Source: a virus
Reading direction: 5' to 3' (one strand)
Virus record (IMG/VR): IMGVR_UViG_3300049734_000195
Location: 1-37,856 of that record
Length of the DNA: 37,856 nt
Positions within the stretch are counted from its first letter, which is position 1; each line of letters starts with the position of its first letter. A program made the position numbers and the translations under genes. Positions 3,414 to 20,589 of the stretch are shown one piece after another. The notes under the pieces were generated by a model. That model made no database searches and was not told where the DNA came from. It worked only from the letters and a program-made list of their open reading frames with translations.

Positions 3414-3893
3414 CTACGCCAACAACCGCCGTACTCCCAGCACCTTGTCTATTGGGAACCGGAGCACGTTTACCGCGTCCCCCTGATTGCCTCCCAACAG
3501 CAGCACGTCGCCGCCCTCCAAGGCAGCGAAGAAGGCGACATGACCTGGCGCGTCGATGACCTCCGGGCCAGGACTATCCACGCCGCGGCGCAGGATCACC
3601 ACATCGAAGCCGACCTGCGCCTGCGTCAGCGTGACTGGCACACCCACCGCTAGCCAGCTTCGCGCCCGCAGGTTATGCGAGCGCGGCAGCCGCAGCAGCC
3701 AGCAGATGTAGTTTGTGAAGGCCGAGCACCACGGCACGGAATCGTCAACCGGCCACTCCTGGTCCAACCGCAGCATGGCCAGCACCATCGGGTTGCTCGT
3801 CTTCCCGGCGACCTCCTTGACCCCGACGAACCGCTGCGCCAGGTCGTAGGCCGTCATCGGGATCGTCGTCAGCGACGCCAGCGGCCTGTTCAT
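3414..3893 (-). CDS. Endolysin, TIGR02594 / NlpC-P60-like amidase
   Basis: A 159-residue protein matching the pattern of the TIGR02594 family: a catalytic Cys in VPWCSAFTNY (Cys56), a catalytic His in PGHVAFF (His118) and a polar residue in GGNQGD (Asn136). Members are papain-like peptidoglycan amidases or peptidases that phages use to cleave the host wall at lysis. There is no signal peptide, so it would need a holin, and two small membrane proteins follow. The ATG overlaps the upstream lyase stop as ATGA. A virion-borne wall hydrolase is less likely, given the lysis-gene neighbours. Confidence 0.8.
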   Translation of the reverse strand: MNRPLASLTTIPMTAYDLAQRFVGVKEVAGKTSNPMVLAMLRLDQEWPVDDSVPWCSAFTNYICWLLRLPRSHNLRARSWLAVGVPVTLTQAQVGFDVVILRRGVDSPGPEVIDAPGHVAFFAALEGGDVLLLGGNQGDAVNVLRFPIDKVLGVRRLLA

Positions 3894-4759
3894 GACGGCA
3901 GCGCCAACCACTCGCGGAACTTCGCGCTGCGGATCCGCCCGTGATAGAGGGTGTTCGTCTGCTCCTGCGCCGTGCCGCGGTAGAAGCCGCAGGACACGTA
4001 GTTCGGGAGAAAGTTGTACATCGTTCCGACCACCATGCGCGGGTGCGCGGTGTAGACCGTCTCCACGCCCGTCCGCGTGAACACGTCCACGTAACCGTTC
4101 CCGTTGCCGACCGCCCATCCTATGTGGAGCATCACGTCGGTCCATGAGTCGCGTACGATGGGGAACGTGGTGCGCTGCTCCGTCTCGCCGCCGGCGTTGG
4201 GCTCCTCACCGACGATGTCCCCGTGTTGCTCGATAAGGCCGCAGCGCACGAAGAACTCCGAACTGACCCCATCGCTGTCATGGCGCAGCGAGATGACCGG
4301 CTGCGGCCCGCCGGTGACTCCTTCCGAGTGGAACTGCATGTAGATTTGCCACTTCGTCGTTGGCGATGCCGAGTTGTCGAAGTTGAACGACGCCGGGATG
4401 TAGATGCTGTCGTGGTACCACCAGTCGGTCCCGTGCGTGGCGTACCATTCGTTATGCCGCTCCAGCAGCGCCCGCTCCTTGTCCGTGCCGAACGGTGGGA
4501 CGCGATCGTCCTGGAGAACCTTGTCGCCGTTGTTGATCGTCAGTTCCCACGCCTTCTCCCCTGGCCGGCCCGGCGCATCGACGAGGACGACGTTCGGGGA
4601 GTTGTCGGGCGTCTCTCCCTGGTTGTTCCATTGCGCGCCCAGACGCCAGTCGTCCCACGCCTTCGAGACACCGCCGCGGAAGTCCTCGCGGAACTGCGGC
4701 GAGCGTGGGCTCATGAAGAACCTCATCTGCTCGCGGCCGGACATGCGCCGTAGGCTCAT
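3890..4759 (-). CDS. Polysaccharide lyase (heparin-lyase-like fold), depolymerase candidate
   Basis: 289 residues resembling the PF14099 polysaccharide lyase family (jelly roll, heparin/alginate lyase relatives). The signs are a DWWYHDSIYIP strand near 112-122, the conserved KWQIYMQFH core at 136-144, SLRH at 157-160, and a late DSWTDVMLHIGWAVGNGNG plus TLYHGRIRSAK (about 204-280). Such enzymes cut acidic surface polysaccharide by beta-elimination. Lying between tail-tip genes and the lysin, it could be a virion or free depolymerase that clears capsule or slime. The ATG overlaps the upstream stop (ATGA). No fibre-anchoring domain is obvious, so virion attachment is unproven. Confidence 0.7.
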   Translation of the reverse strand: MSLRRMSGREQMRFFMSPRSPQFREDFRGGVSKAWDDWRLGAQWNNQGETPDNSPNVVLVDAPGRPGEKAWELTINNGDKVLQDDRVPPFGTDKERALLERHNEWYATHGTDWWYHDSIYIPASFNFDNSASPTTKWQIYMQFHSEGVTGGPQPVISLRHDSDGVSSEFFVRCGLIEQHGDIVGEEPNAGGETEQRTTFPIVRDSWTDVMLHIGWAVGNGNGYVDVFTRTGVETVYTAHPRMVVGTMYNFLPNYVSCGFYRGTAQEQTNTLYHGRIRSAKFREWLALPS

Positions 4760-5355
4760 GGGAAAAAGATCTCCAGCAGGTCGACGTGGATCTCGGATGG
4801 GGGAGCGAAGCCGCCACCGGTGATGTTCTCGATAGCGAACTCGACCCGCACGATGGAGGCGAAATTGGCGAAGCCGCCGGTGAGGTTGAACTCGCTGCTG
4901 AGCCCCCAGGCCCCTCCTTGTGCAGGCGTGTAGATCGAGGTCTGCGAGCTGATGCCGCTCGGGATGCTCGAATAGAACGCCAGGCGCAGCTGCACCGAGT
5001 TGCCATCGCCCATGTCTACGTACTTGCGGCGGTAGCGGGCCTTGGTGAAAGGGGACAGGTCGAGCGCGGGTGCGAAGTCCCGATGCAGGATGCCCCAGGG
5101 CGTGAACGGCGGGAACCCGGAATCGGTCCCTCGATTCGCCCCGGCGCGGTCCCCCTCGAAGGGCGCGAACGAGGTCAGGGAGGACGGTGCCGTCGCGACC
5201 CAGCCGTCGATAGAATTGAGCCCGCCTCCGAGAATCGGCTGCCAGCCCTGGACCTGGCCAACGACGGGCGGGAAGACCGCGACGGACGCATTCCTGCCCG
5301 GCAAGACGGAGAGCGTCCCGACCGGCCCGGGCTGCATCGTCCCGTGTGGCGCCAC
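4756..5355 (-). CDS. Tail-tip or adsorption-associated protein, unknown
   Basis: A 199-residue protein I do not recognise. It is rich in Gly, Pro, aromatic and small residues with beta-strand periodicity, for instance GDGNSVQLRLAFYSSIPS (about 114-131) and FASIVRVEFAIENITGGG. There are no transmembrane segments, and the pattern looks like a compact beta-sandwich. The GTG start overlaps the upstream TAG by one base; an internal ATG at codon 7 is an alternative start. It sits between a BppU-like protein and the polysaccharide lyase, so a receptor-binding or baseplate role is plausible from position only. Confidence 0.6.
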   Translation of the reverse strand: MAPHGTMQPGPVGTLSVLPGRNASVAVFPPVVGQVQGWQPILGGGLNSIDGWVATAPSSLTSFAPFEGDRAGANRGTDSGFPPFTPWGILHRDFAPALDLSPFTKARYRRKYVDMGDGNSVQLRLAFYSSIPSGISSQTSIYTPAQGGAWGLSSEFNLTGGFANFASIVRVEFAIENITGGGFAPPSEIHVDLLEIFFP

Positions 5356-5738
5356 TAGAAGTTCTCCACCAGCGGCTGGAACAGCGCATACTTGCCGTCC
5401 ACCACGGTGTAGTACTTCGTCGCCGCGCTCTTGATCTTCACGCCGAGGAAGTAGGTCACGGCCGGAACCGCCGTCTCCAGCCCGAGCGCCGCGCTGTCCG
5501 CCGGCAAGATGAAGAAGTCGACGATGCCGGCGGTGGCCGGTGCGACGATGACTGCCTCGGATGCGCTCGTGGTCGTCTTACGAATCTTGGCGTTCGCGTC
5601 CGTGTCGGTCGCGAATTCCTTCACGCACAACCGCGCCTGCGCCCCGGTCAGGTCGTACGCGGACCCGTCCGGGTTCGTGATGGCGACGCGGATCGTGGCG
5701 TCCTCGTTGCGGTGGTGCCGAGCGTACTGCTGTGGCAT
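5355..5738 (-). CDS. BppU-like N-terminal domain protein (baseplate)
   Basis: 127 residues. The section NPDGSAYDLTGAQARLCVKE (about 22-41) and the later strands TAGIVDFFILPADS are the pattern of the N-terminal Ig-like domain of lactococcal-type baseplate protein BppU, which holds receptor-binding proteins on the baseplate. Here the domain stands alone. It follows the large fibre-like protein, consistent with a structural linker. GGAGG lies eight bases upstream of the ATG. The BppU comparison is by pattern and of moderate strength. Confidence 0.6.
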   Translation of the reverse strand: MPQQYARHHRNEDATIRVAITNPDGSAYDLTGAQARLCVKEFATDTDANAKIRKTTTSASEAVIVAPATAGIVDFFILPADSAALGLETAVPAVTYFLGVKIKSAATKYYTVVDGKYALFQPLVENF

Positions 5739-5750
5739 TTGCCGACCCTC

Positions 5751-7565
5751 CTACATCTCGATGATGCCCGCGCCCCCGCCAACGTCCTCGCGATCTGCCA
5801 CGCCTACGAGCGTGAGCGGCCCGCAGGCGCCCCGCACGTCGACGCGCACGACCGTCCCGGCGATGCCCGATGCGTTGTCCGGGTGCAGCATCACGCGGTA
5901 GGCGACGGAGCCCGTCGGCGAGAAGGGCATGGACAGGATCTCCAGGCCAGCGTAGGTGACTTGTAACGCGAGCGGACGGCGGTCGCTCTTGGTGAAGCCG
6001 CCGGCGCTGACGTGCGCGGACATCAGCGCGGCCGCCTGCGCGCCCGTCGTCTGCGCGGTATAGACCAAGTAGGAGACGGCGAGGCCCCCAGGAATCGTCC
6101 CGCCCCCATCCGTAATGCCGCTGGCGAGCGTGGCGCCGGCGGCCGAGATGACCGCGACCGTGGCGCCGGGCAGCGGAGCGCCCGTGGAGTCGAGCACCTC
6201 CACCTCCACGAGGGACTCCCACTCCAGCGTCGAGCCGACCACGTTGCTGCTCTGCTTCAAGAGTGGGTCTTCGTCGTCGGCCGCGTCGCCGAAGGTCGGA
6301 TCCCGGAGGATGGCGCGGCGGGCTGAGGTGACCGCCTTGTAGTCGATGTCCGCGGTGGTGCGCCCGAGCACGCGCAGGTTGATCCAGCGGTTGACCACGG
6401 CCGCGCCGGCGATCTGGAAGAACAGACCGACCTCCGAATCTTCGATGGTGAGGTTGTTGTAGGTCTGGCCCTCCTGCGTGGAGTAGCAGAAGCCCGCATA
6501 GTCCTGGCGCATGAAGAGGTCCTGCACCGTGGAGGGGAAGACGCTGCCGGTGGCATTCGTGTTCACGTTCAAGCCAGCCAGCTCGGTCCCGCGCAGCACG
6601 ATGGGAGCATTCGCTCCGTCCGAGCCGAAGAAGGATCCGGGATCGGACCCTCCGCTCAGCACGCCGTTGCCGGTGACCTGCACCATGCCGCGCTTGCCGA
6701 TGTCCTCGACGTACGAGTCGTTCAGCTCGCAGGCAGCGTCGGCGTACACCGTGATGCGATTCACTCCGGCGGTCTGCGGTCTGGTCGCCGTGCCGTACCC
6801 GCCCCCATAGACGGCGCACCCACGCGAGCGGCGGCCCGTCGCGGGGTCGTACTCGCCCCAGATGATCGTGCTGCCGCTGCCGCTCAAGATGTTGGACCGC
6901 ACCCCTCCGATCACGACCGCCAAGGTGTCCTTGGGGTTGAAGTAGACCGGCGTGAGGGTCGCATCTCCGAGCACCAGGTAGGCGGCGAACTGGAAGTAAT
7001 TGCCGATGACGTCCGGGCAGAAGGCGTTGCCGATCAGGGCCACGTTGGCAGGCGAGGCTGCGAGGATGGCGTCGTAGAACGTGCGGTACGTCCCGGGGTT
7101 TCCGGCGTCCCCCTGCGTCATAACGGCAAGGACGAGGCCCACCGGGAAGAACGGACGCGAACAGACCGGCGCAGCCACCGAATCGGTGAAGGTGAGCCCG
7201 GTCGCGGTGGCGAAGGAGAGCGACGCGAGCGTCCCGAGCGCGTTCGGCGTGATCTCTGAGTACGTGGGGTTGTCGACCCCTCCGGCGTTCAGCGTCCGCA
7301 CGTAGACCCGGTAGGCGGCCGCCCCGGACACGGCGTTCCAGGCGAGCGCCACGCGGCGATTCGTGGCATCGGCGGTGAACGGTCCGATCTCGACCGACGG
7401 CGCCGAGTGGCGACGCACGGAGCCGACCGTGTTCGTGTCCATCGCCACGACCCGGTACCAACGGCTCTGCCCGTTCGGGATAGAGCCGGTCGCCTGGAGC
7501 GTCCCGCCGGCGCCGACCCAGGTCGGGGTGGCGAGCGTAGTCACGGCGACAACAGGAGCGCTCAC
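5751..7565 (-). CDS. Tail fibre / receptor-binding-like protein
   Basis: A 604-residue virion-type protein. The N-terminal part (about 10-125) has fibronectin-III-like features (SRWYRVVAMDTN, VALAWNAVSGAAAYRVYVRT). The middle, from about 130 to 450, is Gly/Asn/Val-rich with repeated short strands (VALIGNAF, DTLAVVIGGVRSN, YNNLTIEDSEVGLFFQI) suggestive of a right-handed beta-helix as in tail spikes. A C-terminal Ig-like segment contains EVLDSTGAPLPGATV (about 470-490). The GTG at 7565 overlaps the preceding TGA (GTGA), favoured over the upstream in-frame GTG at 7577. It likely contacts host surface glycans. No catalytic residues can be asserted. Confidence 0.7.
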   Translation of the reverse strand: MSAPVVAVTTLATPTWVGAGGTLQATGSIPNGQSRWYRVVAMDTNTVGSVRRHSAPSVEIGPFTADATNRRVALAWNAVSGAAAYRVYVRTLNAGGVDNPTYSEITPNALGTLASLSFATATGLTFTDSVAAPVCSRPFFPVGLVLAVMTQGDAGNPGTYRTFYDAILAASPANVALIGNAFCPDVIGNYFQFAAYLVLGDATLTPVYFNPKDTLAVVIGGVRSNILSGSGSTIIWGEYDPATGRRSRGCAVYGGGYGTATRPQTAGVNRITVYADAACELNDSYVEDIGKRGMVQVTGNGVLSGGSDPGSFFGSDGANAPIVLRGTELAGLNVNTNATGSVFPSTVQDLFMRQDYAGFCYSTQEGQTYNNLTIEDSEVGLFFQIAGAAVVNRWINLRVLGRTTADIDYKAVTSARRAILRDPTFGDAADDEDPLLKQSSNVVGSTLEWESLVEVEVLDSTGAPLPGATVAVISAAGATLASGITDGGGTIPGGLAVSYLVYTAQTTGAQAAALMSAHVSAGGFTKSDRRPLALQVTYAGLEILSMPFSPTGSVAYRVMLHPDNASGIAGTVVRVDVRGACGPLTLVGVADREDVGGGAGIIEM

Positions 7566-8005
7566 AGGAACCACCACATGCCATAGACGGCGTTCAGCTT
7601 GATGGTGGAGCCGGCTCCAGTAATGTCCCCCAGGATTCTCATGTTGTGCTCGACGCCCTTCGTCGACAGTACCGTGCCCTCGATGGTGTGGTCCTCAGCG
7701 ATGGCCGGCGGCACCCACAGATCGCCACCGAGCCCATTGAGATCCCACAATATGAACGGGTTCGTGCCAGCGCCGTCGTAGTCGCCGTTGATCTTGACCG
7801 CCAGACGCGAGGCCCAGATCGGAACGTAGACGCGGTAGGTCACGAAGATCGTCGGCCCGCCAGGCCCACCGCTGCCAGTCGCATCCGTGAGCGGGACGTA
7901 CTGCGCCCGGCGCTGCTCGTCGCGGTCGTAGTACTTCTTCAGGAGCTCCTGCGTGATCGGAGAGTAGGCATCGCGCTCCGTCAGGGGGATGGTCTGGAAT
8001 GGCAT
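7562..8005 (-). CDS. Tail-tip protein, paralogue B of a tandem pair
   Basis: 147 residues. It is related to the gene just upstream (8005-8466): both begin with a short leader, then SP followed by an acidic helix and YYDRDE (here QELLKKYYDRDEQRRAQYVPL), then a Thr-rich strand and VPIWASRLAV against VPIWATKLVV in the other. The rest is beta-rich and ends in a hydrophobic VYGMWWFL. The pair probably arose by tandem duplication and forms part of the distal tail or adsorption apparatus. The exact job is unknown. The ATG overlaps the upstream stop as TGATG. Confidence 0.65.
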   Translation of the reverse strand: MPFQTIPLTERDAYSPITQELLKKYYDRDEQRRAQYVPLTDATGSGGPGGPTIFVTYRVYVPIWASRLAVKINGDYDGAGTNPFILWDLNGLGGDLWVPPAIAEDHTIEGTVLSTKGVEHNMRILGDITGAGSTIKLNAVYGMWWFL

Positions 8006-8466
8006 CAGGTCGGCCCCAGGAAGCGGCAGGCCGGCCCGTCCGTCTGCTTCGCGTAGGCGATATTCGCCCCGTTGCTGATCTTCGCCTGCAACGAGATGGT
8101 GACCTCGGTTCCCTGGACAGTCGACACATCGGAGAACGTGAGCCGCTCCGTGTCGACGTAGGTCAGGGACGTGGTCGTCTTGGTGTCGCTCGTCAGCGCC
8201 CCGATGATCGCCTGGTAGGAGCCGGTCACGCCGTTGACCTTGACCTGGATCGCCACCACCAGCTTCGTCGCCCAGATGGGCACGTAGCCCTTCCAGCTTG
8301 CGACGGTGACGAAGGTCGTGCTGCTCGTCGTGACCTCTGCCAACGGTGCCCAGAACGGCGCCTGGCGCAGGCCCTCGTCGCGATCGTAGTAGTCCGTGAA
8401 GAGCTGTTCCTCGAGCGGCGAGTCGACGTCCCGGCGGGTGGCGACGATGTCGTTGAAGGGCGCCAT
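8005..8466 (-). CDS. Tail-tip protein, paralogue A of a tandem pair
   Basis: 153 residues, partner of 7562-8005. Shared landmarks are SPLEEQLFTDYYDRDEGLRQ near residues 16-35 and VPIWATKLVVAI near 62-73. The second half is Thr/Ser/Val-rich, with strands typical of a jelly-roll or Ig-type virion protein. The ATG follows the upstream TAG directly (TAGATG). No family assignment is made. Oligomeric tail-tip or short-fibre subunits are the likeliest role because of the flanking tail genes. Confidence 0.65.
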   Translation of the reverse strand: MAPFNDIVATRRDVDSPLEEQLFTDYYDRDEGLRQAPFWAPLAEVTTSSTTFVTVASWKGYVPIWATKLVVAIQVKVNGVTGSYQAIIGALTSDTKTTTSLTYVDTERLTFSDVSTVQGTEVTISLQAKISNGANIAYAKQTDGPACRFLGPT

Positions 8467-8712
8467 CTACGCCTCCCGGACTATGCGGCCGTACTCGACC
8501 ACCGGCTGCTGCCGCGGGAAGCGGCACAGCTTCGTCGGCACCTTCATCGGGTGGAACGGCTTGACCTCGCGCTCGATCTCCTGCTCGAGGAAGTGCGGGC
8601 AGCGGTCGTTGCAGTCCTCGTAGGGGATCAACTGCCGGAACGCCGGGCACTGGATGAGCGTCCCGAGATCCTGCGTCTCGGTCTGCGGCCCGTACGGGCT
8701 ACTGGACGACAT
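8467..8712 (-). CDS. Small Cys-rich tail-region protein
   Basis: 81 residues with four Cys arranged as C-x11-C-x3-C (CPAFRQLIPYEDCNDRC) followed by a late Cys (KLCRF), a possible metal-binding or zinc-finger-like arrangement. Its ATG lies inside the end of the 655-residue tail gene (14-base overlap). Small zinc-site proteins occur in some phage tail operons near the tip, but I do not recognise this one. Function unknown. Confidence 0.6.
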   Translation of the reverse strand: MSSSSPYGPQTETQDLGTLIQCPAFRQLIPYEDCNDRCPHFLEQEIEREVKPFHPMKVPTKLCRFPRQQPVVEYGRIVREA

Positions 8713-10666
8713 AGCCCTTGTCCCCGTTGCTCATGAGACCGCTGGAGTTGCAGATGTAGGCGAATTGCCGCTGCGCCTCGGTGGCGCTGGTGTAGTTCGG
8801 CTGACCGTTCGGCGCGATGAAGGCGGGCCGGTTGTAGTACGATCTTAGCAGCGTGGCCTGCGACTCGGCCTCTGGATAGTTCGCATCGACCGAGACGATC
8901 TCGTACAACTCCGTCACCTTGCCTCGCGCCCCGGTCGCCAGGTTCGGGAGCTGCGCCTGGGTGATCTGGACCTCCTCGCCTACGCCCATGTCGATCTGGG
9001 AGAAGAGCGTGTCGCAGCGCAACTCCTCGGGCGCGCGAAAGGTCCGTAGCGCAAGGCGCGAGGCCCGTGCTTCCGCCAGCGTCACCCCGTCATGTTCCGT
9101 CCGCAGCCACTTGGACTCGACCACCATCTCGGCCAAGCCGTCCGCATCGATGGCCGCGGTGTCCTCGACGCGAGCGAGCTCGACGTAGTCGCCGGACTGC
9201 TTGTCCCAATCGCCGCTGATGACGATCCGGTTGAGCCTGAGATCCTGGCGCCTGGTCCAGTCGGGCACCGACGTGAGCACGTCGTTCGTCCACGAGACAG
9301 GGGTCGTAGGAGGAACCGGCGGATGCCAGCCGCGGAATGCGACCTCCGCCTTCAGGTTGCTGTACAGGTAGCCCCAGAGCCTGGTAAAATCCTCTTCCAG
9401 GATCGACATGGCAGGCGTCGGCTCGTCGAAGCGCGCCTCGACCACCTGGCCCGTATAGAACGCATCGCGGTCGGTCTGGAAGGTGTAGCCAGCCACCTGG
9501 CTCGTCGTGCCCGCAGACATCGTCACCGCCAAGCCCACGCCAGAGGGATCGCCCGCGAGCCACTCGACCGGGAAGTCCGCGTCTACAGTTGCCGGCGTGC
9601 CGATCAGGTTCAGCGCCAAGTTGACGGGGTTGCCGCGGGCGACGACCTTCTGCGAGACAGAGGCATCGTCGACATAGACCGTGGCATTCCCGAGCGCGGC
9701 ATCACTCCCCCGGATGTAGAACTCGAGGCCGGGATTGGCCGTCGCCTCGGTCTTGAAGCGGATGATCGTCCGGGCGTAGACGCCATCCCCTGGGGTCGCC
9801 GTCAGATAGGCGGGCCCGGCGCCCCATGTCGATGCCGCAGTCGGCCCGGTCCCGGACGCCGCCGTGAGCCAGTTGCCAGTGGTGAGATTCTTCACGCCGA
9901 TCTGGAACGGCAGATTGAGCGCGCTGCCCTTCGCCCAGAACTCAAAGGCGTAGTAGGTCGAGGCCGCGAATCCACCACGAGCCTGCTTCAATTCGCCAGT
10001 GTTCCCACCGATACCGTAACTGAACAATGCCGCGGCGCCTTCGCCCAGCCTCGTGAGGCTCGGCGCTGTCACCTTGGTAATGTTGGTACCGACGCCGGTT
10101 GTGACCGTCCAATCATCTGGCTCGTCGCTCGTATCCCAGGAATCCAGATCCGCGTTGAGTAGTCGTTCTTCCCCGTCCGCGGCTACCATGCAATCATTCC
10201 GCAATTCATCCAATAGGCTGTTGCACGTGACCCGCCAGACCGTCCCGTCAGATCGCAGGTCCACATCTCTGAGCTTCCCGACCCAGATCCGCACCCAATC
10301 TGTGAACGCGAGCGAGCGGAAGCCCATCCAGAGCCCCACGGTCGGGCGCAGAGCGCCAGCGCCGGATGGCTTCTCGGTCGCCACCACCTTGTTCAGGAAG
10401 TCGTCAGCTGTCGACAGGATCTCGACCGCCAGCGAGCCCGATCCGATGGTGCCCTCTTTCTGGTTCAGCGTCTGCCCGCCGGCCCGCACGCGGTCGCGCA
10501 GGTACGGCTTCCAGTTAGACGGGCTGGGCGCCCCCGATGGGACCACGCCCGAGTAGTAGGCCCAGGAGCCATCCATGCCCGATGCGGTCGCCAGCGCGAA
10601 CACGAAGCACGGAGCGTTCTGCCGGCTGTCGAGCTGCGTCTGGAAGTTGGCGTTGAAGGAGCCCAT
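8699..10666 (-). CDS. Large tail-tip protein with inserted carbohydrate-binding-like module
   Basis: 655 residues. The N-terminal part (1-165) and the part after about 340 look like one tail protein interrupted by a foreign module at roughly 169-339. This module starts NADLDSWDTS, contains NLTTGNWL, and ends in YVDDASVSQK, the layout of a CBM4/9-type jelly roll. The later section has a baseplate or hub flavour (LRLNRIVISGDWDK, GVGEEVQITQAQLPNL). It follows the gene at 10666-11769, which carries a sister module, and overlaps it as TGATG. It is likely a tail-hub or fibre component binding host glycans; no enzymatic site is recognised. Confidence 0.7.
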   Translation of the reverse strand: MGSFNANFQTQLDSRQNAPCFVFALATASGMDGSWAYYSGVVPSGAPSPSNWKPYLRDRVRAGGQTLNQKEGTIGSGSLAVEILSTADDFLNKVVATEKPSGAGALRPTVGLWMGFRSLAFTDWVRIWVGKLRDVDLRSDGTVWRVTCNSLLDELRNDCMVAADGEERLLNADLDSWDTSDEPDDWTVTTGVGTNITKVTAPSLTRLGEGAAALFSYGIGGNTGELKQARGGFAASTYYAFEFWAKGSALNLPFQIGVKNLTTGNWLTAASGTGPTAASTWGAGPAYLTATPGDGVYARTIIRFKTEATANPGLEFYIRGSDAALGNATVYVDDASVSQKVVARGNPVNLALNLIGTPATVDADFPVEWLAGDPSGVGLAVTMSAGTTSQVAGYTFQTDRDAFYTGQVVEARFDEPTPAMSILEEDFTRLWGYLYSNLKAEVAFRGWHPPVPPTTPVSWTNDVLTSVPDWTRRQDLRLNRIVISGDWDKQSGDYVELARVEDTAAIDADGLAEMVVESKWLRTEHDGVTLAEARASRLALRTFRAPEELRCDTLFSQIDMGVGEEVQITQAQLPNLATGARGKVTELYEIVSVDANYPEAESQATLLRSYYNRPAFIAPNGQPNYTSATEAQRQFAYICNSSGLMSNGDKGYVVQ

Positions 10667-11769
10667 CAGGTCACGTATTCCCTGGCCGTCACGTCGAAGT
10701 CGACGCGGAACGCCGGCCCCTCACCGAAGGGTCGCCGCCGCCGGTCTACCACCTCGAGCGCCGGGTAGTAGTCCGTCGACCGGAAGATATCTCCGGTCCC
10801 ATACGTGTAAAGCAGCGGGTCTCGCAACTCAATCGTGGTGCCGTTGACACCGTCCACCACAACGATCTCTTCCTCGAACCCGTTCGCCTCGCGCAGGATG
10901 TAGAGGTCCCCGACCGTGATCCCGTGCTCCAGCGCCACCGCGATGTTCTGCTTCTGGATCACAGACAGCCAGTCCAGGTAGAGGATTTCCCCGTTGCTGA
11001 ACTCCGCCCCGTATTGGTGAACGGCGACGTTGAAGCTCGTCCCCGAGCCTTCGGTCGTGAACTCGATCTCGAAGGTGGTCCAGCCCTGCGTCGCTGGGGT
11101 GAACGTCAGCTCATTGCCCACGCCTGTCGACGCGGTCCAGGTGCTATTGGCCTGAAGGAAGTTTCCCGTGGTCAAGTTCGCCAGCCGGAGTACGATCTGA
11201 TTACCAGCCGTGCCGTTTCGCACTCGTGCCCGCAGCCTGTACTTGGTCGTAGTTGCCAGCGTGATGGTCTGCGACATTGTCTGGAGGCCGGAGGCCCCTT
11301 TGGTCATCGCGGCAGCGTATGGACCAGAGTAGGCAAGCGCCCGGTCTTCAACCCGCGTGATCGAACCTCCTGTGCCGTCCAGCCCCTCGGTCCAACTCCC
11401 GGCGTTGGTGTCACTGGACCAGGTGTCGAAGTTGTGATTCCCGACCAGTTCTGTGGCGGTAAGCGTTCCGAGGGTATTGGTGGTATCGATCGTCTTGGCC
11501 GCATCGTAGGCGAAGCTCCACGGGTTGCCGCGAGCAGCCCACGACCACCAGGCGAGCAGCGACTCGTAGAACGCCTCGTGCTCCGTCTGCGTCCTGGACA
11601 TGACCTCGCAGGCGACGCGGACCATGTCCGTCCGGCGCAGCGTCGTCGTCTCCGTCTTGCCGGTCAGCGACTGGTTGACGGCGCCGATCCATTGTGCGTC
11701 TGGATCGTAGCGCGTGAGGAGCTCCGGGAAGTCGAGCAGGTTCCCGTTCCAGATGATCCGTGGGTTCAT
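10666..11769 (-). CDS. Distal-tail-type protein with inserted carbohydrate-binding-like module
   Basis: 367 residues, first gene after the tape measure, the usual place of the distal tail protein. Residues 1-100 and 275-367 appear to be the tail body (N-terminal PRIIWNGNLLDFPE, C-terminal YYPALEVVDRRRRPFGEG and DFDVTAREYV). Between them, about 107-273, sits a jelly-roll-like module opening NHNFDTWSSD, with NLTTGNFL in the middle and LYLDWLSVIQK at the end, closely parallel to the module in the next gene. Such inserts in Dit-like proteins bind host sugars. The ATG overlaps the tape-measure stop (ATGA). Confidence 0.7.
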   Translation of the reverse strand: MNPRIIWNGNLLDFPELLTRYDPDAQWIGAVNQSLTGKTETTTLRRTDMVRVACEVMSRTQTEHEAFYESLLAWWSWAARGNPWSFAYDAAKTIDTTNTLGTLTATELVGNHNFDTWSSDTNAGSWTEGLDGTGGSITRVEDRALAYSGPYAAAMTKGASGLQTMSQTITLATTTKYRLRARVRNGTAGNQIVLRLANLTTGNFLQANSTWTASTGVGNELTFTPATQGWTTFEIEFTTEGSGTSFNVAVHQYGAEFSNGEILYLDWLSVIQKQNIAVALEHGITVGDLYILREANGFEEEIVVVDGVNGTTIELRDPLLYTYGTGDIFRSTDYYPALEVVDRRRRPFGEGPAFRVDFDVTAREYVT

Positions 11770-13472
11770 AGTCTCGCCGCCGCAACCGGCACGCCGTTCC
11801 GCATGATGTGGGTTGCGGTCAGCGCCATGCCACTGCGCTCGACGAGATCCTTGAAGTCCTTCAGCAGCCGCGTCGCCCCTGCCGGCATGCCATGCGCATC
11901 GACGCCGCCCTGGAAGTGCATGTTGACCACCACGCCAGCCCCACCGCCCCCGGCCTGCTGTTGCCGCTGGACCTCATGCGCCGGGATCACGTACTCGCCG
12001 GGCATGAGCATCGCCGGCACCGAGTCCTGGCCTGGGAAACCGCCGGTCACGAAGCCTCCCATCGCGTACTTCGTAGTCCGGATCTTGTAAACCTGGACGG
12101 CGCCGAGCGCCGCGACGAGGGCGGCCAGCGGGATGTTCGGCAACGCCTCCGCGACAGCCGCCGCGGTATCGATGATCGCCTCCGCGATGCGGATCGCCTT
12201 CGTATGCTCGAACGCCTCGCCCGCGAATTGCACGCCGGCCGCCGCCACCGCCAGCGAGTTGCGGACCTTCGTCTTCTTCTCTTCCTCGCTGAAATTGATC
12301 TCCTTCGCCGAGTTGATCGCCGCTTGGGCGATCTCCTGGCCCTGCGCCTTCGTCAGCGCCAGGTGGGCTCGATTGAGCAGGTCCAGCCACCTGACGCCGC
12401 GCTCGTGCTCGAGCTCCTGCATCTCGCGGTTGTGCTCGACCTCGCGCATCATGTTCTCTTCCTGCTGTGCGCGAGCCCTATCAGCCCTCTCCTGCCGATC
12501 TTCCTCCCGCTGCCGCTCCGCCTCCGCTAGCGCCTCGTCGTATGCGCGCTTGGCCTCCAGCATCGACGCCAGGTGCTCACCGAAGATCCGGTTGCTGGTC
12601 GCGGCCTCCGCCTCCGCGACCTCGGGCGGTGTCACCGGCCGTCCGAGCCCGGCGCCCAGACCCTTCGGATCCTCCTGTGGACCGGTACGCCCTGAGACCA
12701 GCAGGTTGACGCCTGGGATGTTCGACAGCGCTTCGATGAGGCCCTTCACACGCTCGGTCTGGATCGCGGCCAGGATGGTCAGCGTCTGCATCGACGCCTG
12801 CACGAATCCCGACTGCGTGAACAGCGACCCGTATGCCTCCTTCAGGTTGTCGACCGCGTTCGTGAGGTTCGCCATCTGGCCGGTGTAGGTTCCGACCGCG
12901 GCCTGTGCAGCGCCGCCGAAGCGGGCCTCGATCTTCCTTAGGAGCTCCTCGTACTTCTCGGCGGGATCCAGACCCTCGCTGAGCACGATCCCATAGCGGG
13001 AGAGCGCGGTAGTGTTTCCCTGCGCCGCCTTCGCCATGAGCGTCGCGGCCGTCGACAGGTCGACCGACAAGACCGTCGCCAGATCCATCGCCGCCCGCGT
13101 GGCCCGGTCGAGGCCCTCTCCCGACAACCGGCCGAGAACGGCGAGCAGCGCCTGCGCCTCCTGGATGGCGTCATCCGAGAAGGTGGACTGTGCCTCGAGC
13201 GCAGCCGACAACGCGATGGTCTGCTTGAGGGTGGCCGCGGATGCGTCCCCGACCGAGCGGAGAGCGAACGCCAGCTTCTGCTCCGCGACCTCCGCCTGCG
13301 CCGCGGCCGAGATGGTGGACGTGATCGCCTCGGTCAGCTTGCCGATGGAGACGTACGCCAAAGCCGCGGACGTGGCTAGCCCCGCCAGACTCTTCGCGGA
13401 GAACTGCTCTAGCGTCCGGGACGCCTCGTCCCGAGCCTTCAGCAAAATTTCGATGGTCCGTTGGTCTGCCAT
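11766..13472 (-). CDS. Tail tape measure protein
   Basis: 568 residues, helical and Ala-rich. The N-terminal half (DEASRTLEQFSAKSLAGLAT and then AALEAQSTFSDDAIQEAQAL) is typical of phage tape measures. A charged coiled coil lies near 300-370 (EAERQREEDRQERADRARAQ), and hydrophobic segments near 405-465. The C-terminal AMGGFVTGGFPGQDSVPAMLMPGEYVIPA is a hallmark of this family. It sets tail length, and by the usual proportionality the tail is short for a siphovirus. It starts one base after the stop of the frameshifted chaperone extension, the standard G-GT-TMP order. Confidence 0.88.
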   Translation of the reverse strand: MADQRTIEILLKARDEASRTLEQFSAKSLAGLATSAALAYVSIGKLTEAITSTISAAAQAEVAEQKLAFALRSVGDASAATLKQTIALSAALEAQSTFSDDAIQEAQALLAVLGRLSGEGLDRATRAAMDLATVLSVDLSTAATLMAKAAQGNTTALSRYGIVLSEGLDPAEKYEELLRKIEARFGGAAQAAVGTYTGQMANLTNAVDNLKEAYGSLFTQSGFVQASMQTLTILAAIQTERVKGLIEALSNIPGVNLLVSGRTGPQEDPKGLGAGLGRPVTPPEVAEAEAATSNRIFGEHLASMLEAKRAYDEALAEAERQREEDRQERADRARAQQEENMMREVEHNREMQELEHERGVRWLDLLNRAHLALTKAQGQEIAQAAINSAKEINFSEEEKKTKVRNSLAVAAAGVQFAGEAFEHTKAIRIAEAIIDTAAAVAEALPNIPLAALVAALGAVQVYKIRTTKYAMGGFVTGGFPGQDSVPAMLMPGEYVIPAHEVQRQQQAGGGGAGVVVNMHFQGGVDAHGMPAGATRLLKDFKDLVERSGMALTATHIMRNGVPVAAARL

Positions 13473-13473
13473 G

Positions 13474-13634
13474 CTACTTCCGCCGCTCGCGCTCTATGCC
13501 GGCGAGCGCCGAGTACTTGTCAATCGTGAACTGCGCGTATGGCCCTAGCTCCGGGAACCACGCACTCGGTCGCACGCTGTACCGCTGCGCCAGAATGTCG
13601 AAGAACTCCCCGACGTCCTGGCGCGTTAGGAAGG
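13474..13634 (-). CDS. Tail assembly chaperone, GT-type extension by -1 frameshift
   Basis: After the TAA ending the upstream chaperone (13626-13628), the -1 frame stays open to a TAG at 13474-13476 and encodes PFLTRQDVGEFFDILAQRYS and onward to GIERERRK. It has no start codon of its own, fills exactly the gap before the tape measure, and matches the gene-G/GT arrangement of long-tailed phages. The likely slip is at CCU (13632-13634), where Pro-tRNA can move back one base onto CCC, just before the stop. No canonical slippery heptamer is visible. The start coordinate marks the proposed slip, not a start codon. The fusion would be about 187 residues. Confidence 0.7.
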
Positions 13635-14033
13635 GCGGACGCGGGTCGCCTCCCTGAGCGAGTGCTCCGAGTGCGCCATGATCGCGGCGAAGAGACGCCC
13701 GACCATGTCCGCCGGCAGCTCCTCGACGTGGATCGCATCCTCCGCTGCCGGCTGCCCTGGCTCCGCGATCTGGACCGACACGACCCCGCGGGCAACCACT
13801 CGGCAGAGGAACGTGTATTCCTGCTCCGCGGAATCCTCATCGACCTGCCGCTCCCGCCGGCGCTTGCTGCGCGGCAGGTAGACACCGAGGTCGAGCGGCC
13901 CGCCGAGCTCGAGCATCTCGGCGGGATCGATCCGGCGGATTCGCCAGCGGAAGCCGTCGACCTCGATGTCCTTCTCGCGCAGCGCCTCGCGCAGGCGGTC
14001 CGCGCTCACGTACCCGTTCGTCTGCTCGTCCAT
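13626..14033 (-). CDS. Tail assembly chaperone (G-type)
   Basis: 135 residues between the tail tube and tape-measure genes, the standard place for the tail assembly chaperone that coats the tape measure during tail building. It is acidic and basic mixed, with a mostly alpha/beta body (VDGFRWRIRRIDPAEMLELG near 26-45, VEELPADMVGRLFAAIMAHS near 103-122) and no membrane segment. Its 3' end overlaps a -1 frame ORF with chaperone-extension features, so a longer GT form is expected. GGAG four bases before the ATG supports the start. Confidence 0.75.
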   Translation of the reverse strand: MDEQTNGYVSADRLREALREKDIEVDGFRWRIRRIDPAEMLELGGPLDLGVYLPRSKRRRERQVDEDSAEQEYTFLCRVVARGVVSVQIAEPGQPAAEDAIHVEELPADMVGRLFAAIMAHSEHSLREATRVRPS

Positions 14034-14040
14034 GTGGCTC

Positions 14041-15048
14041 CTATACCGCGGTGAGTGCGTTCTGGATGTCCAGGTAGCAGGCGTCCGACGTGCCCGTGCC
14101 GAGACCGAGTGCCCGGAACGGAAGCGGCTGCTTCAGGATGCCGGCGTTCTGCACGGTGGGCGTCTCGCCCTCCAGCTTGCAGTTCGGCAGGGTGAGATTG
14201 AACTTGTAGGCCGCGGTCGGGCTGGAGCCCGGGATCGTGGCACCCGTCGCGAGCAGCTCCAGCTTGAAAAGCGTCCCGGCCGCCGCGCCGGCGGAGGTCA
14301 GCAGGTCGTTGTAGCGCGTCTTGTCCGACCAGTCCGCGATGATCTTCCCGCTGATCTTTCGCCGGACGTTCCGCACCGGCTGCGCGATGTACTGCGAGCC
14401 CAGGACGCGCTTCGTCAGGTTCAGCCCGTTGTCGATCGTCAGTTCCGCCTCGTCGATCGTGTAGGCCACGTCCGCCCGCTCGCAGAGCACATGGTGCCCC
14501 TTGATGAGCAGCGCCCCCGACAGGTCCGGGAAGGTGACCGTGGTCTTGGCGACCAGCGTCTCCTTCTGCGCGGTGATGTTCCAGGTCAGGCGCAGCGGAT
14601 CGTTCGGCTTGAAGGCGATGGTCACCGACGCGATCTTGCAGCCGCCGTAGAGATGGGCGGTGTCCGCGCCGGCGGCCTCCAGGTTCGCGTCGTCTCCCTT
14701 GTAGACCTCGACGGAGAGCCCCGGCGGCAGCGCGTTCGTGAGCGTGAACTGGTGGTTGTAGGTATTCGTCCCTGGGTTCGTCGTGGCGACCGCGCCGAAG
14801 AGATGCTTCCACAACTTCTCCAGGCCCTCGAAGATGCCCTCCATCTCGATGGCCCCGGTCGCGGAGATCAGGAAGTCCTGCAGCCGGCGCTCCGAGAGCG
14901 AGCGGACGGACGGGGCGTCCTGCAGCTCCACCGCGCCCTTCATGCTCTCGGTGATGAACTCCATGAACTTCGTGCGGGCGACCGTGGTTCCCCAGGTCGA
15001 CTCCTCCCCGAAACCTACGCTCGAATCGTATCCAAATGCGTCGGGCAT
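14041..15048 (-). CDS. Major tail tube protein
   Basis: 335 residues. The start (PDAFGYDSSVGFGEESTWGT) and the middle (GAIEMEGIFEGLEKLWKHLFG) follow the pattern of the larger siphoviral tail tube proteins, in which G-E-x-T-x-G-T near the N-terminus is typical. Beta-rich strands continue to the C-terminus. Many copies stack as hexameric rings around the tape measure. The gene sits two genes after the tail-terminator-like protein and directly before the chaperone, as expected. The length fits tube proteins carrying an extra surface domain. Confidence 0.78.
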   Translation of the reverse strand: MPDAFGYDSSVGFGEESTWGTTVARTKFMEFITESMKGAVELQDAPSVRSLSERRLQDFLISATGAIEMEGIFEGLEKLWKHLFGAVATTNPGTNTYNHQFTLTNALPPGLSVEVYKGDDANLEAAGADTAHLYGGCKIASVTIAFKPNDPLRLTWNITAQKETLVAKTTVTFPDLSGALLIKGHHVLCERADVAYTIDEAELTIDNGLNLTKRVLGSQYIAQPVRNVRRKISGKIIADWSDKTRYNDLLTSAGAAAGTLFKLELLATGATIPGSSPTAAYKFNLTLPNCKLEGETPTVQNAGILKQPLPFRALGLGTGTSDACYLDIQNALTAV

Positions 15049-15063
15049 GGTCGCCTTTCCCCC

Positions 15064-15246
15064 TTACTCCTCGATGGTCGGTGCGGGCGTGCTGGTCACA
15101 GCCTCGAACCGGGTCGGATGGTCGCGCAGGAGCGCGGCCGCCAGCTTGTCAGGCACCTCCGCGGGCACCCCCGCGGTCAACTGCTGCGTGGTCTCGAGCT
15201 CGACCAGTGCCGAGTCGTCGGGCGCAGGCTTGTAGACGAGCTTCAT
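15064..15246 (-). CDS. Small protein between tail terminator and tail tube genes
   Basis: 60 residues, unrecognised. It begins KLVYKPAPDDSALVELETT and has a central helix (EVPDKLAAALLRDHP). Small acidic proteins of this kind with a KLAAALL-type helix recur beside tail tube genes and may be accessory assembly factors. A strong G/A-rich Shine-Dalgarno (GGGGGAGGG) sits three bases before the ATG, and the next gene follows after a short gap, so expression as a real protein is likely. Function unknown. Confidence 0.6.
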   Translation of the reverse strand: MKLVYKPAPDDSALVELETTQQLTAGVPAEVPDKLAAALLRDHPTRFEAVTSTPAPTIEE

Positions 15247-15280
15247 GCTGCCCTCCCCCTTATTCGCAGATGCTTTCGCA

Positions 15281-15727
15281 TCACGGGCTCCCGATGACGT
15301 AGCGGTAGCGGATGCTCGCCACCAGGTCGATCATTCCGTGGAAACCGAACTGCGGATCCTGGTCCACCACGTTCGCGATGGTCCGCTCCACGATCCGGCA
15401 CTGCTCGACGTTCCCGAGCCCGAGCGTCGGATCCGTCTCCAACTTCACCTCGACGTCGCGGGCGAGCTCCCGCGCCCGCTTCGCCGCCTCGTCCCCGCGC
15501 ACGTAGCCCACGATCCCCACGGTCATGTCCCACTGCTTCCGCCTGGTGCTCGACACACCCAGGTTCTCGGGCGTGCGCTCGTTCGTGGCGTAGATGCAGA
15601 GAGCCGGCGTGCCCTCGACCTGGGAGATGTCCAGGTAACCGTCGTAGACGCGCTTCCCGATGCCGGTGATCATCAGCAGTTTGGCCAGCACGGCCTCGAT
15701 GATCTCCTGGTTGACGGGGTCGCTCAC
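15281..15727 (-). CDS. Tail terminator / head-tail joining protein (gpU-like)
   Basis: 148 residues. The N-terminal helix NQEIIEAVLAKLLM, the central strand TPALCIYATNERTPEN and the later MTVGIVGYVRGDEAAKRARELA are the layout of tail terminator (tail tube terminator, U-like) proteins, which cap the tail tube and join it to the head. The gene lies between an HK97 gp10-like protein and the tail tube, the usual position. The GTG start overlaps the preceding TGA (GTGA). Function is by order and pattern and is not enzymatic. Confidence 0.72.
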   Translation of the reverse strand: MSDPVNQEIIEAVLAKLLMITGIGKRVYDGYLDISQVEGTPALCIYATNERTPENLGVSSTRRKQWDMTVGIVGYVRGDEAAKRARELARDVEVKLETDPTLGLGNVEQCRIVERTIANVVDQDPQFGFHGMIDLVASIRYRYVIGSP

Positions 15728-16287
15728 GGCTGCACCGCTGCAACGTAGGCGTCACCCATGATCGCAACGATCGTCTCACGTCTGGCCGCCAGCACCGGCG
15801 ACAGGTACGGGCTCGCCGGCACGCGGACCTGCTTCTTCAGCACGAAGAGCGGCGTGATCCCCGTGCCGTTCTTCATCGCCAGGATCAGGTTGCCCGCGCG
15901 GCTGCGGAGGAAAAACGTGTCCTGGAAGTCGAGCGCCCGCCCGCGGCCGACCCCTGCCCGCGTCTTGGCGGCCTCGAGCGGGATGGTGAGCCACTGCCTC
16001 GTCACCGGCCGCACCTCCCCGCCGAGCTCCTGGATGCGGCCATAGGGCGGCCCCTTCGGCCCGACCCTGCCCTCGGTCCCGCGTAGGTTCATGGTCCAGC
16101 CGATAGAGCGCCTGAGCGTCCCCGTACGCACCCGCGGGCGCCCGGTCGACAGGCGCGTGGTGACATCCGCGGTCAGGATCATCAGGATTCGCCGCATCGC
16201 CTCGATGCGCTTCACCTGAGCCTTGAGCCCGGCGCCCCGAAAGGCGCCCGCGACCGCGTCCCATCCGATGACCTGCATGGTGAACAT
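15724..16287 (-). CDS. HK97 gp10-like head-tail joining protein
   Basis: 187 residues. It is basic, with a helix rich in Arg/Lys (KAQVKRIEAMRRILMIL near 23-39), then TGRPRVRTGTLRRSIGW (about 48-64), the conserved R-T-G-x-L-R-x-S-I stretch of the HK97 gp10-like family that builds the neck. GPKGPPYGRIQELGGEV (about 76-92) is also typical. It binds at the head-tail interface beside the connector. The ATG overlaps the connector stop as TGATG; a second Met four codons in is a possible start. Confidence 0.8.
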   Translation of the reverse strand: MFTMQVIGWDAVAGAFRGAGLKAQVKRIEAMRRILMILTADVTTRLSTGRPRVRTGTLRRSIGWTMNLRGTEGRVGPKGPPYGRIQELGGEVRPVTRQWLTIPLEAAKTRAGVGRGRALDFQDTFFLRSRAGNLILAMKNGTGITPLFVLKKQVRVPASPYLSPVLAARRETIVAIMGDAYVAAVQP

Positions 16288-16859
16288 CAGCAGGCCCGGT
16301 GGTTCATGAGCGGCGCGAGCCGCCGCATGATGTGCTCGTCCCACGACTCGAAGTCGAACTTCGAGATGTTGCCGTCCCGGTTGCCGACGCTAATCACCTC
16401 CGGCGCCGGTGCCCGGTTGAGCGCCTCGACCGCCATGTCGATGGAGAGCCGACGCAGCGCCCGCGGCAGCGTCGCGTAGCCCCCGGAATAGACGACCTTG
16501 ACGCTGCTGACTCCCGGCAGGAATGTCCCCACCTTCATGCGGATGATCCCGCGATTGGCGTCCACCACGAAGTACTCCGTGGCAGCCACTAGAGCACCCG
16601 ACGCAAACTCGTGCGCCGAGTCGTCGTGGATCGTGGCGACGCTGATGATCGGTCGGTAAGTGACCATCACGTTGTCGAGCCCGCCATCCAGGTACTCGGT
16701 GAAGTTCGCCTGCAACCAGGTGAAGCCCCCGCGGGAGACTAGGTCGATGTGAGACGCGACCTCGTCGACTATCAGGTCGATGAGCGCGTCGTGCTTCGTC
16801 TCCTGGGGGTCGGTCCAGCCCTTCGAGAGCTTGACCTCGTTCCTGGTGCAGTAGGCCAC
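16287..16859 (-). CDS. Head-tail connector (gp6-like adaptor)
   Basis: 190 residues, resembling phage head-tail connector/adaptor proteins. The N-terminus MAYCTRNEVKLSKGW is followed by an acidic helix (DALIDLIVDEVASHIDLVSR, residues about 24-43), a beta section with EYFVVDANRGIIRMK (about 92-106), and SVKVVYSGGYATLPRALRRLSIDMAVEAL near the end, all usual for gp6-like adaptors. It forms a ring below the portal. GTG start with GGAG six bases upstream, the GGAG overlapping the upstream stop region. Confidence 0.8.
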   Translation of the reverse strand: MAYCTRNEVKLSKGWTDPQETKHDALIDLIVDEVASHIDLVSRGGFTWLQANFTEYLDGGLDNVMVTYRPIISVATIHDDSAHEFASGALVAATEYFVVDANRGIIRMKVGTFLPGVSSVKVVYSGGYATLPRALRRLSIDMAVEALNRAPAPEVISVGNRDGNISKFDFESWDEHIMRRLAPLMNHRAC

Positions 16860-16862
16860 GCG

Positions 16863-17159
16863 CTACTCCTTCGCCGCCTTCGGCCGCTTCGGCGGGCTGC
16901 TCATGGCCCGGTTGTTCGGCGCATTCTCGACCACCTCCGCGCCCTGCGCGGCCGCCGGCTCGACCCGCTCCGCGATCCCGAGCGCGTCGCAGTAGTGCGC
17001 CGCGAGCGCCGCGTCGGTCGTGAACTGGTCGCCCTCGTTGTAGTCCGCCAGCTTGCCGCTCTCCTTCATGCGAATGCGGACGAGATTGTCCGGGCTCGTG
17101 ATCCCCGGCATCCCGACCGCCTTCGCCTTCTCGATTGACTTCGTGTTCATCGATGCCAT
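16863..17159 (-). CDS. Small acidic head-region protein
   Basis: 98 residues, unrecognised. The first 50 residues contain KEGSK-like basic/acidic text and NLVRIRMKESGKLADYNEGD (about 26-45), reading like a short beta-rich fold. The second half is Ala/Pro/Glu/Lys-rich and probably disordered. Small proteins of this sort follow capsid genes and may stabilise capsid or bind the connector. Two in-frame ATGs (17159, 17150) are candidates; the first lies one base after the upstream stop. Function unknown. Confidence 0.55.
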   Translation of the reverse strand: MASMNTKSIEKAKAVGMPGITSPDNLVRIRMKESGKLADYNEGDQFTTDAALAAHYCDALGIAERVEPAAAQGAEVVENAPNNRAMSSPPKRPKAAKE

Positions 17160-17160
17160 C

Positions 17161-17634
17161 TCAGACCTCGAAACTCGGGGCACTGAAGTTGGTCGGCACC
17201 ACTCCCGCAGCCCCGCTTGGCGGGTTGGCACTGTTGCTCTCCAGCAGCACGGCGATGACGCAGACCTTGCCGGCCGCGGTCTGCTCCAGATAGGACGGCC
17301 GCAGGTAGCGCGCCGGCGTCTCCCGGATCGTGAACGACCGCCAGTACATGGCCTCGTCGTTCGATGGCGTCCATTGGTTCGGCGCGAAGCCGGGCGAGAA
17401 GTCATCCGATGCCACCGCGTCATCGTCCGGGTCGGAGTCCGACGCGACCGTGGCCACCGGGTCGAAGCGGAACGACCCTGTTGCTACGATCGTCCCGATG
17501 TTCACGAAGATGACCGCCTCCTTGAAGCCGAGCATGTCCATCGCCGCGGCAGACGCACCAGACTCGGCGCTCGCCGCGAGCGACTGCGGCTCGACCAGCG
17601 CCGCCACTGTGACCCACCGCTTCAGACTCGTCAT
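17161..17634 (-). CDS. Capsid-associated protein, paralogue 3 of a tandem set
   Basis: 157 residues. It shows the same skeleton as the two genes upstream: a SGAS(A)AA(M)DMLGFKEAVIFVNIGTI block (about 24-48), comparable to NGAAIDTAGFDEAVIVAVAG in the first copy. An acidic Asp/Ser insert follows (about 59-80), and a C-terminal strand section ends in VCVIAVLLES (about 132-141). The family is common just downstream of capsid genes and is thought to coat or decorate the head. The acidic insert sets this copy apart. Function is inferred from position and likeness, not from a known motif. Confidence 0.6.
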   Translation of the reverse strand: MTSLKRWVTVAALVEPQSLAASAESGASAAAMDMLGFKEAVIFVNIGTIVATGSFRFDPVATVASDSDPDDDAVASDDFSPGFAPNQWTPSNDEAMYWRSFTIRETPARYLRPSYLEQTAAGKVCVIAVLLESNSANPPSGAAGVVPTNFSAPSFEV

Positions 17635-17639
17635 CGCAG

Positions 17640-18071
17640 CTACTCCGCGGGCAGCGTGATCCTCACGCCTTCCGATCCGGCTTCGCCCACCGGCGGGTTC
17701 TCTGCCGAGCGCGGCCCGGCGAAGAGATGGGCCGCGAACCACACGTCATCTGCCACCGCGACGGTCGCGACCAGCTTCACCCACCGCTTGCTCGTGTGCT
17801 TCAGCGTGTAGGTCCCGAAGTAGGTCGCATGGTCGTTGGCGTCCGTCACCTGCTGGAACGCCGCCCCAGGGACGTCGGTATAGGTTCCAGCCGACTCGTC
17901 CGACTCCTGGATCTTCACGTCGAGCGTCGCGGTAGCAGGACAGGCCCCCACCGCCAGGTACGCCACCATGCCGCTCTGGTCGGTGGTGTCGAGTGCGGCG
18001 CCCGAGTGCTCGCCGATGGCGTACGCGTCCGGCTTCAGGACACTGCCGATGAGACCGCTCACGTTGCCCAT
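17640..18071 (-). CDS. Capsid-associated protein, paralogue 2 of a tandem set
   Basis: 143 residues. EHSGAALDTTDQSGMVAYLAVG (about 21-42) and TLDVKIQESDESAGTYTDV (about 49-67) align by eye with the neighbours at 18081-18485 (NGAAIDTAGFDEAVIVAVAG, TWDVKVQEDTASGFASPTD), and the later RWVKLVATVAVADDVW matches a GREQYIRINS strand. It is a compact beta sandwich typical of head decoration candidates. It starts after TAGGGGGATTCG, a usable Shine-Dalgarno. The function is not established. It could be a trimeric decoration or a stoichiometric head vertex protein. Confidence 0.6.
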   Translation of the reverse strand: MGNVSGLIGSVLKPDAYAIGEHSGAALDTTDQSGMVAYLAVGACPATATLDVKIQESDESAGTYTDVPGAAFQQVTDANDHATYFGTYTLKHTSKRWVKLVATVAVADDVWFAAHLFAGPRSAENPPVGEAGSEGVRITLPAE

Positions 18072-18080
18072 CGAATCCCC

Positions 18081-18485
18081 CTAGACGTCGAACGCCGGCG
18101 TGTCGTAGAGCGCGGAGGAGTACGCCTTCCGCAGCAGGACCATGACGCCTCCCGCGACCGGCTGCGTCGCCTGCACCGAGTTGATGCGGATGTACTGCTC
18201 GCGCCCGGCCTCGAGTTTGATCCGTCCGACCTTCAGCGTGTTCTGGATGGCGTTCGTGAACTGCGCGAAGACCGCACTGGCGATGTCCGTGGGCGAAGCG
18301 AACCCGGAGGCCGTGTCCTCCTGGACCTTGACGTCCCAGGTGCCGCCCGCCGTGATGGCCCCGGCCACCGCGACGATGACCGCCTCGTCGAAGCCGGCCG
18401 TATCGATGGCCGCCCCGTTCTGCGTCCCGGACAGCGCCCCGGCGTTGAGACCGATGACCCACTTCCCGTTCGTCTGCTGCTCCAT
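18081..18485 (-). CDS. Capsid-associated protein, paralogue 1 of a tandem set
   Basis: 134 residues, the first gene after the major capsid gene. The sequence has the pattern of small head-decoration candidates: GGTWDVKVQEDTASGF (about 47-62), VFAQFTNAIQNTLKVGRIKL, and a terminal LLRKAYSSALYD. GGAGG lies six bases upstream of the ATG, and the hairpin at 18504-18526 precedes it, which could tune the ratio of this gene to the capsid gene. It is likely to bind mature capsids, but that is inferred from place and family likeness. Confidence 0.62.
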   Translation of the reverse strand: MEQQTNGKWVIGLNAGALSGTQNGAAIDTAGFDEAVIVAVAGAITAGGTWDVKVQEDTASGFASPTDIASAVFAQFTNAIQNTLKVGRIKLEAGREQYIRINSVQATQPVAGGVMVLLRKAYSSALYDTPAFDV

Positions 18486-18503
18486 CTCTGCCTCCGAAGA
18501 TGA

Positions 18504-18526
18504 GGGCGGCGCTGAGGACGCCGCCC
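18504..18526 (-). terminator. Hairpin after the major capsid gene
   Basis: GGGCGGCG (18504-18511) and CGCCGCCC (18519-18526) form an 8-base perfect stem with a 7-base loop between the capsid stop and the next gene. No U-run follows on the minus-strand transcript, so it is an attenuator or RNA-stabilising hairpin rather than a full terminator. High capsid expression relative to downstream genes would fit. Confidence 0.5.
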
Positions 18527-18544
18527 CCCAGAGTTACCGCAGGA

Positions 18545-19951: not shown

Positions 19952-19956
19952 CAGAC

Positions 19957-20586: not shown

Positions 20587-20589
20587 GGG

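Follow-up and report, generated by a model that had tools for sequence, protein, structure and literature searches.

Homologous modules resembling a carbohydrate-binding domain in two adjacent tail-tip genes of a siphovirus-like phage

Phage tail-tip proteins of the Dit and hub or receptor-binding (RBP) types are already known to carry carbohydrate-binding modules (CBMs). Passages of the study on Bacillus phage Deep-Purple describe CBMs in both Dit and hub/RBP, with fluorescent fusions that bind host cells (PMC9128512), and parts of a report on Streptococcus thermophilus phages describe the same combination together with host binding (PMC9437275). CBM-bearing Dit and hub/RBP proteins are covered in sections of a review (PMC7291167), the Dit of OE33PA, an Oenococcus phage, is predicted to contain a CBM4 according to a passage of PMC8540738, and an excerpt of PMC9230537 lists CBM_4_9 among the binding domains of phage receptor-binding proteins. 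The pattern has its best documentation among dairy phages and other phages of Gram-positive bacteria; the phage considered here adds a further case and extends it towards an environmental group, the known relatives of which (phage records with a matching hub) infect marine Proteobacteria and cyanobacteria. Like the evolved Dit and Tal proteins of Lactobacillus phage J-1, the Lactococcus 936 group, S. thermophilus phages and Deep-Purple, it has a CBM-like domain in the protein encoded after the tape-measure gene and another in the next, hub- or fibre-type protein. Unlike those of the evolved Dit and Tal proteins, its modules are known from sequence alone, with predicted fold and binding, and they are recognisable paralogues of each other. 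This paralogy is the sole unusual feature with respect to the known systems compared here.

The window, that is, the whole stretch of DNA analysed, is an entire virus record of 37,856 bases (G000). Its minus strand encodes, in order, the terminase, portal, protease, capsid, connectors, a tail protein and the tape measure, the last of which matches tail length tape measure profiles (phrog_934, E 1e-8; phrog_27166, E 4e-8). The two genes of interest, P0001 and P0002, have the coordinates and strand given in the preliminary description (table 1) and follow the tape-measure gene in tail-tip positions, in agreement with their earlier designation as tail genes. P0001 overlaps its neighbours by 1-4 bases, the overlap with P0002 being a single base.

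Table 1. Positions of the features discussed; coordinates refer to the window unless another record is named.
Feature	Coordinates	Strand	Remarks
Tape-measure gene (TMP)	11766-13472	minus	directly upstream of P0001
P0001	10666-11769	minus	367 aa; adjoins 3' side of tape-measure gene (Dit position)
Module 1 (P0001 residues 107-273)	10951-11451	minus	CBM_4_9-like
P0002	8699-10666	minus	655 aa; tail hub/tail-fibre-like
Module 2 (P0002 residues 167-340)	9647-10168	minus	homologous to module 1
81-aa ORF after P0002	8467-8712	minus	parallel, by position only, to 77-aa ORF after Mae-JY22 hub
Small paralogous genes downstream of P0002	7562-8014; 8005-8466	minus	adjacent
Paralogous genes beside capsid gene	17640-18071; 18081-18485	minus	neighbours
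Polysaccharide lyase domain (PF14099)	3932-4630	minus	E 2e-15; in ORF downstream of tail genes
Lyase ORF as listed	3890-5389		499 aa
Hub block of about 70 residues, L038	8441-8662	plus	near hub start
Hub block of about 70 residues, L059	4086-4295	minus	near hub start
Hub block of about 70 residues, Mae-JY22 (L007)			hub residues 223-294
Downstream tail gene, L036	1354-2496	minus	CBM_4_9-like domain
Downstream tail gene, Mae-JY22 (L007)	9371-10849	plus	CBM_4_9-like domain

The tail identity of P0002 comes from its C-terminal half, which by sequence comparison is homologous to a family of tail fibres and hubs. A relaxed tblastn search with its last 313 residues retrieved the hub gene of Microcystis phage Mae-JY22 (E 0.1), a phage with the gene order of the window: tape measure, 253-aa gene (gene 1), 655-aa gene and 77-aa gene. 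BLASTP of P0002 residues 455-654 against the 655-aa protein (XAI95665.1; phrog_11439, 'tail fiber protein') gave E 4e-8, and profile comparison of residues 341-655 gave E 3e-11 when the hub profile comprised eight proteins and 1e-15 when it comprised nine (the latter profile, hubB, omits Mel-JY03, PB15, Pq0, H105/1, Vibrio 1.144.O, L045 and L065, and the XX1924 hub is not included). The Mae-JY22 hub was matched in 27 phage records, from which we fetched Mae-JY22 and 11 others; gene 1 directly precedes the hub in all of them. P0002 thus shares with the phrog_11439 hubs (Mae-JY22, Idiomarinaceae phage 1N2-2, Marinomonas phage P12026 and Pseudoalteromonas phage H105/1) both a homologous C-terminal half and the order TMP - gene 1 - hub, but differs in its N-terminal half, the first 168 residues giving no significant alignment to the hub profiles (E 0.39) and module 2 having no counterpart in them. 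A further profile (A4) had no relevant match in PDB. P0002 accordingly resembles evolved Tal/hub proteins in lying after the Dit-position gene and in its homology to a tail hub/fibre family, and P0001 resembles evolved Dit proteins in lying directly downstream of the tape-measure gene. Profile comparison of the N-terminal flank of P0001 with the Dit-position family was not significant (E 0.05), and hhalign detected no sequence link between the window proteins and the Dit or Tal of J-1 or TP901-1, nothing being found for P0001 in a comparison in which the positive control, J-1 against TP901-1 Dit, also failed. The gene 1 of one relative is annotated as a discoidin-domain protein and has a weak match to F5_F8_type_C_2 (19.9 bits; cut-off 27.8). 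Further downstream, a tail gene of L036 has a CBM_4_9-like domain above the curated cut-off (28.3 bits) and one of Mae-JY22 a similar domain below it (13.8 bits).

The two modules are homologous, a conclusion well supported by sequence comparison, composition bias notwithstanding. BLASTP aligns them with 50 identities over 179 positions (28%; E 9e-6), and their Smith-Waterman score of 109 was reached by none of 1000 shuffles that kept composition (mean 38.6, sd 6.4). The earlier suggestion that the same module occurs in both adjacent tail genes therefore holds, as does the reported presence of three common motifs, which are found in the same order in both. N-x-(N/D)-(F/L)-D-(T/S)-W occurs as NHNFDTW at P0001 residues 111-117 (11419-11439) and as NADLDSW at P0002 residues 171-177 (10136-10156); NLTTGNxL lies at residues 198-205 and 260-267, respectively; and YLDW/YVDD followed by VSQ/VIQ-K is seen in YLDWLSVIQK (P0001 264-273) and YVDDASVSQK (P0002 331-340). 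Scanning all six frames of the window located neither the first motif nor NLTTGN outside the two modules. When phmmer was run over 2866 open frames, each module was the only match of the other below 0.1 once copies of this window DNA are disregarded; the best-domain E ranged from about 7e-5 to 2e-4, and the composition bias was 8-10 bits. The z score between the modules is 11.7, as against 2.2 or less between either of them and four similar-looking modules of related phages.

How the two genes came to share this module can be argued in two ways. The preliminary description had it moved or duplicated between them, which our data do not show: the modules have no similarity at the DNA level, their protein identity is low and no relative with an empty site was found. 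Since DNA similarity is absent, any copying must have been long ago. A search for the module in other contexts covered 50,697 phage records with E allowed up to 10 and yielded nothing credible; module 2 had no hit and module 1 a single one, in Mycobacterium phage JustASigh (E 1), that we take as chance. This result, together with the mutual best match across the open frames, favours one source for the two sequences. Given their divergence in both DNA and protein and the small comparison set, both copying and two acquisitions stand. Separate acquisition from one large module family, to which we give rather less than even weight, would account for this divergence and for the presence of unrelated modules at these gene positions in other members of the phage group; against it stand the reciprocal best match and the lack of any close relative of either module in the phage records. 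The more specific proposal that one lineage copied a single sugar-binding-like cassette, from a family that had no close relative in the searched phage collections, between adjacent tail-tip ring proteins is tentative and in our opinion rather doubtful; if true, Dit ring and hub would present one ligand specificity in two symmetries, to the benefit of avidity, and the gene pair would be a standing swap site. The G+C content of four-fold sites is 75/100 in module 1 against 96/111 in its flanks (p 0.036) and 89/109 in module 2 against 238/275 (p 0.26), with p 0.014 for both together. A recent transfer read from this codon usage was set aside, as another gene of the phage has windows just as low.

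With tblastn, neither P0001 nor P0002 had a close relative in phages at 1e-3 or in viral contigs, and P0002 had none in genome contigs; the minor tail protein of the window had none in viral contigs and phages, and megablast of positions 5000-24500 found none in phages. The portal retrieved three viral contigs, none with a module match; two of the three show 100% identity over the portion that they contain. It had no match in genomes. Pattern matches in viral contigs to the module profile (A1; 47), and those to the hub pair (A3; 135), were not confirmed in any case. A match of the C-terminal flank of P0001 in Sinorhizobium phage PBC5 runs antisense to annotated genes and was dropped as chance.

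The carbohydrate-binding character attributed to the modules in the preliminary description agrees with a sub-threshold match of module 1 to Pfam CBM_4_9 (PF02018), its best and sole Pfam match. It scores 20.8 bits in the whole protein and 23.0 alone (also 22.3) against a cut-off of 25.9, and covers profile positions 2-130 of 136. Module 1 is thus like CBM_4_9 over nearly the whole profile but below the curated cut-off, and module 2 has no match in Pfam or PHROG, so that neither is assigned to the family by sequence; module 2 is called CBM-like because of its homology to module 1, itself considered CBM-like from this weak match. PF02018 is present in only 3 of the 58 related or fetched records. 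Structure prediction of both modules, which had been proposed as a check, did not yield a fold: the AlphaFold models, built from single sequences without alignment, are both poor (mean pLDDT 39.4 for P0001 and 37.3 for P0002). The best-rated part of the P0001 model is module 1, with strands between residues 163 and 270. Foldseek and VIA matches to residues 130-272 of this poor model include CBM families 4, 6, 16 and 35, along with many unrelated beta-sandwich proteins of equal or higher Z; the top rows are not CBMs, and the best Z of about 9 is close to the stated noise level of 7-8. These matches fit a beta-sandwich and prove nothing beyond; the modules would probably have such a fold.

On balance we favour the view that the two modules derive from a single carbohydrate-binding-like module with a role in adhesion, as copies that diverged long ago, and are borne by the Dit-position protein and the hub/fibre protein of a siphovirus-like phage. 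As the best explanation we infer that they may have arisen by copying inside this lineage, and not through separate uptake from a common source family, and that they most likely protrude from the tail tip and, by analogy, provide weak multivalent binding to a glycan or polysaccharide of the host surface before a dedicated receptor-binding step. The widening of adsorption put forward in the preliminary description is a hypothesis. Tail tips usually contain six Dit and three hub copies; were this stoichiometry to apply, a virion would display up to nine modules. A binding role is proposed because, in other phages, fluorescent fusions of CBM-bearing Dit and Tal/RBP proteins bind host cells. That the modules are homologous beta-sandwich domains of a purely structural kind, spacers or decorations of the tail tip that bind no sugar, would suit the sub-threshold score of module 1 and the mixture of beta-sandwich proteins among the structural matches. 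We nevertheless consider it unlikely, since the best and sole Pfam match of module 1 is a carbohydrate-binding family and host binding by CBMs encoded at these two positions is described for other phages in passages of PMC9128512. The downstream polysaccharide lyase domain is circumstantial, fitting a life among polysaccharides; the ORF that contains it probably has its listed start too early, its 5' part overlapping another minus-strand ORF.

The preliminary description also regarded the modules as interrupting otherwise continuous proteins. We could not confirm this for the window, in which module 1 lies between P0001 flanks of 106 and 94 aa with no empty-site relative found, and in which deleting module 2 improved the alignment of P0002 to the hubs no more than deleting other stretches. 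Among 46 IMG/VR loci from a motif scan, however, five hold hub relatives of the window, and two of these carry inserts. In L059, Mae-JY22 gene 1 residues 5-54 and 59-253 are matched with about 500 bases between them, an insert of about 166 residues that is absent in the other 10 of the 11 aligned gene-1 proteins (alignment A5, which omits Mel-JY03, XX1924, H105/1, Vibrio 1.144.O and L065). The L038 hub has about 144 extra residues within a domain uninterrupted in L036, L059 and Mae-JY22 (one of four aligned). Neither insert matches a CBM in Pfam or shows detectable sequence relationship with module 1 or 2 (z 2.2 or less); we take them to be CBM-like solely on visual inspection and motif resemblance. 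At the sequence level, modules are clearly gained or lost at defined sites, with sharp borders, in the same gene pair of these relatives, and from the two inserts it follows that each of the two gene positions can take up modules irrespective of the other. The window phage is a case in which both hold members of one module family. The notion of an exchangeable cassette thus stands insofar as other modules come and go at these positions, but not for movement of the window's own module.

Both stretches might instead be native, fixed parts of their protein families that were never inserted, which would fit the absence, from our searches, of a close relative of either protein lacking the module; this we judge quite improbable, as one stretch is common to two different scaffolds and sharp-bordered gain and loss is seen at the homologous positions of relatives. 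The relatives provide natural pairs with and without an insert, L059 versus L038 and Mae-JY22 for gene 1 and L038 versus L036, L059 and Mae-JY22 for the hub, which serve the question of how a tail protein can gain such a module and still work. In addition, a stretch of the Mae-JY22 hub, about 70 residues long, lies near the hub start (around residue 45) in L038 and L059, and is a second, smaller mobile piece of these hubs.

Chance, or a composition rich in threonine, alanine and glycine, is scarcely credible as the source of the similarity between modules 1 and 2 despite the bias reported by HMMER and the 39 ORFs compared in total, being largely refuted by the shuffling test and further opposed by the identical order of the three motifs and by an E of 1.5e-4, composition-corrected, in the all-against-all comparison of 39 chosen window ORFs. 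The module pair was one of three pairs below 1e-3 in that comparison, the remaining two being adjacent duplicated small genes. One of these lies downstream of P0002 (36% identity over 81 aa, E 9e-11). The other lies beside the capsid gene (32% over 82 aa, E 8e-8) and possibly represents duplicated head decoration proteins; its member at 17640-18071 has a very weak match to CBM_4_9 (14.3 bits).
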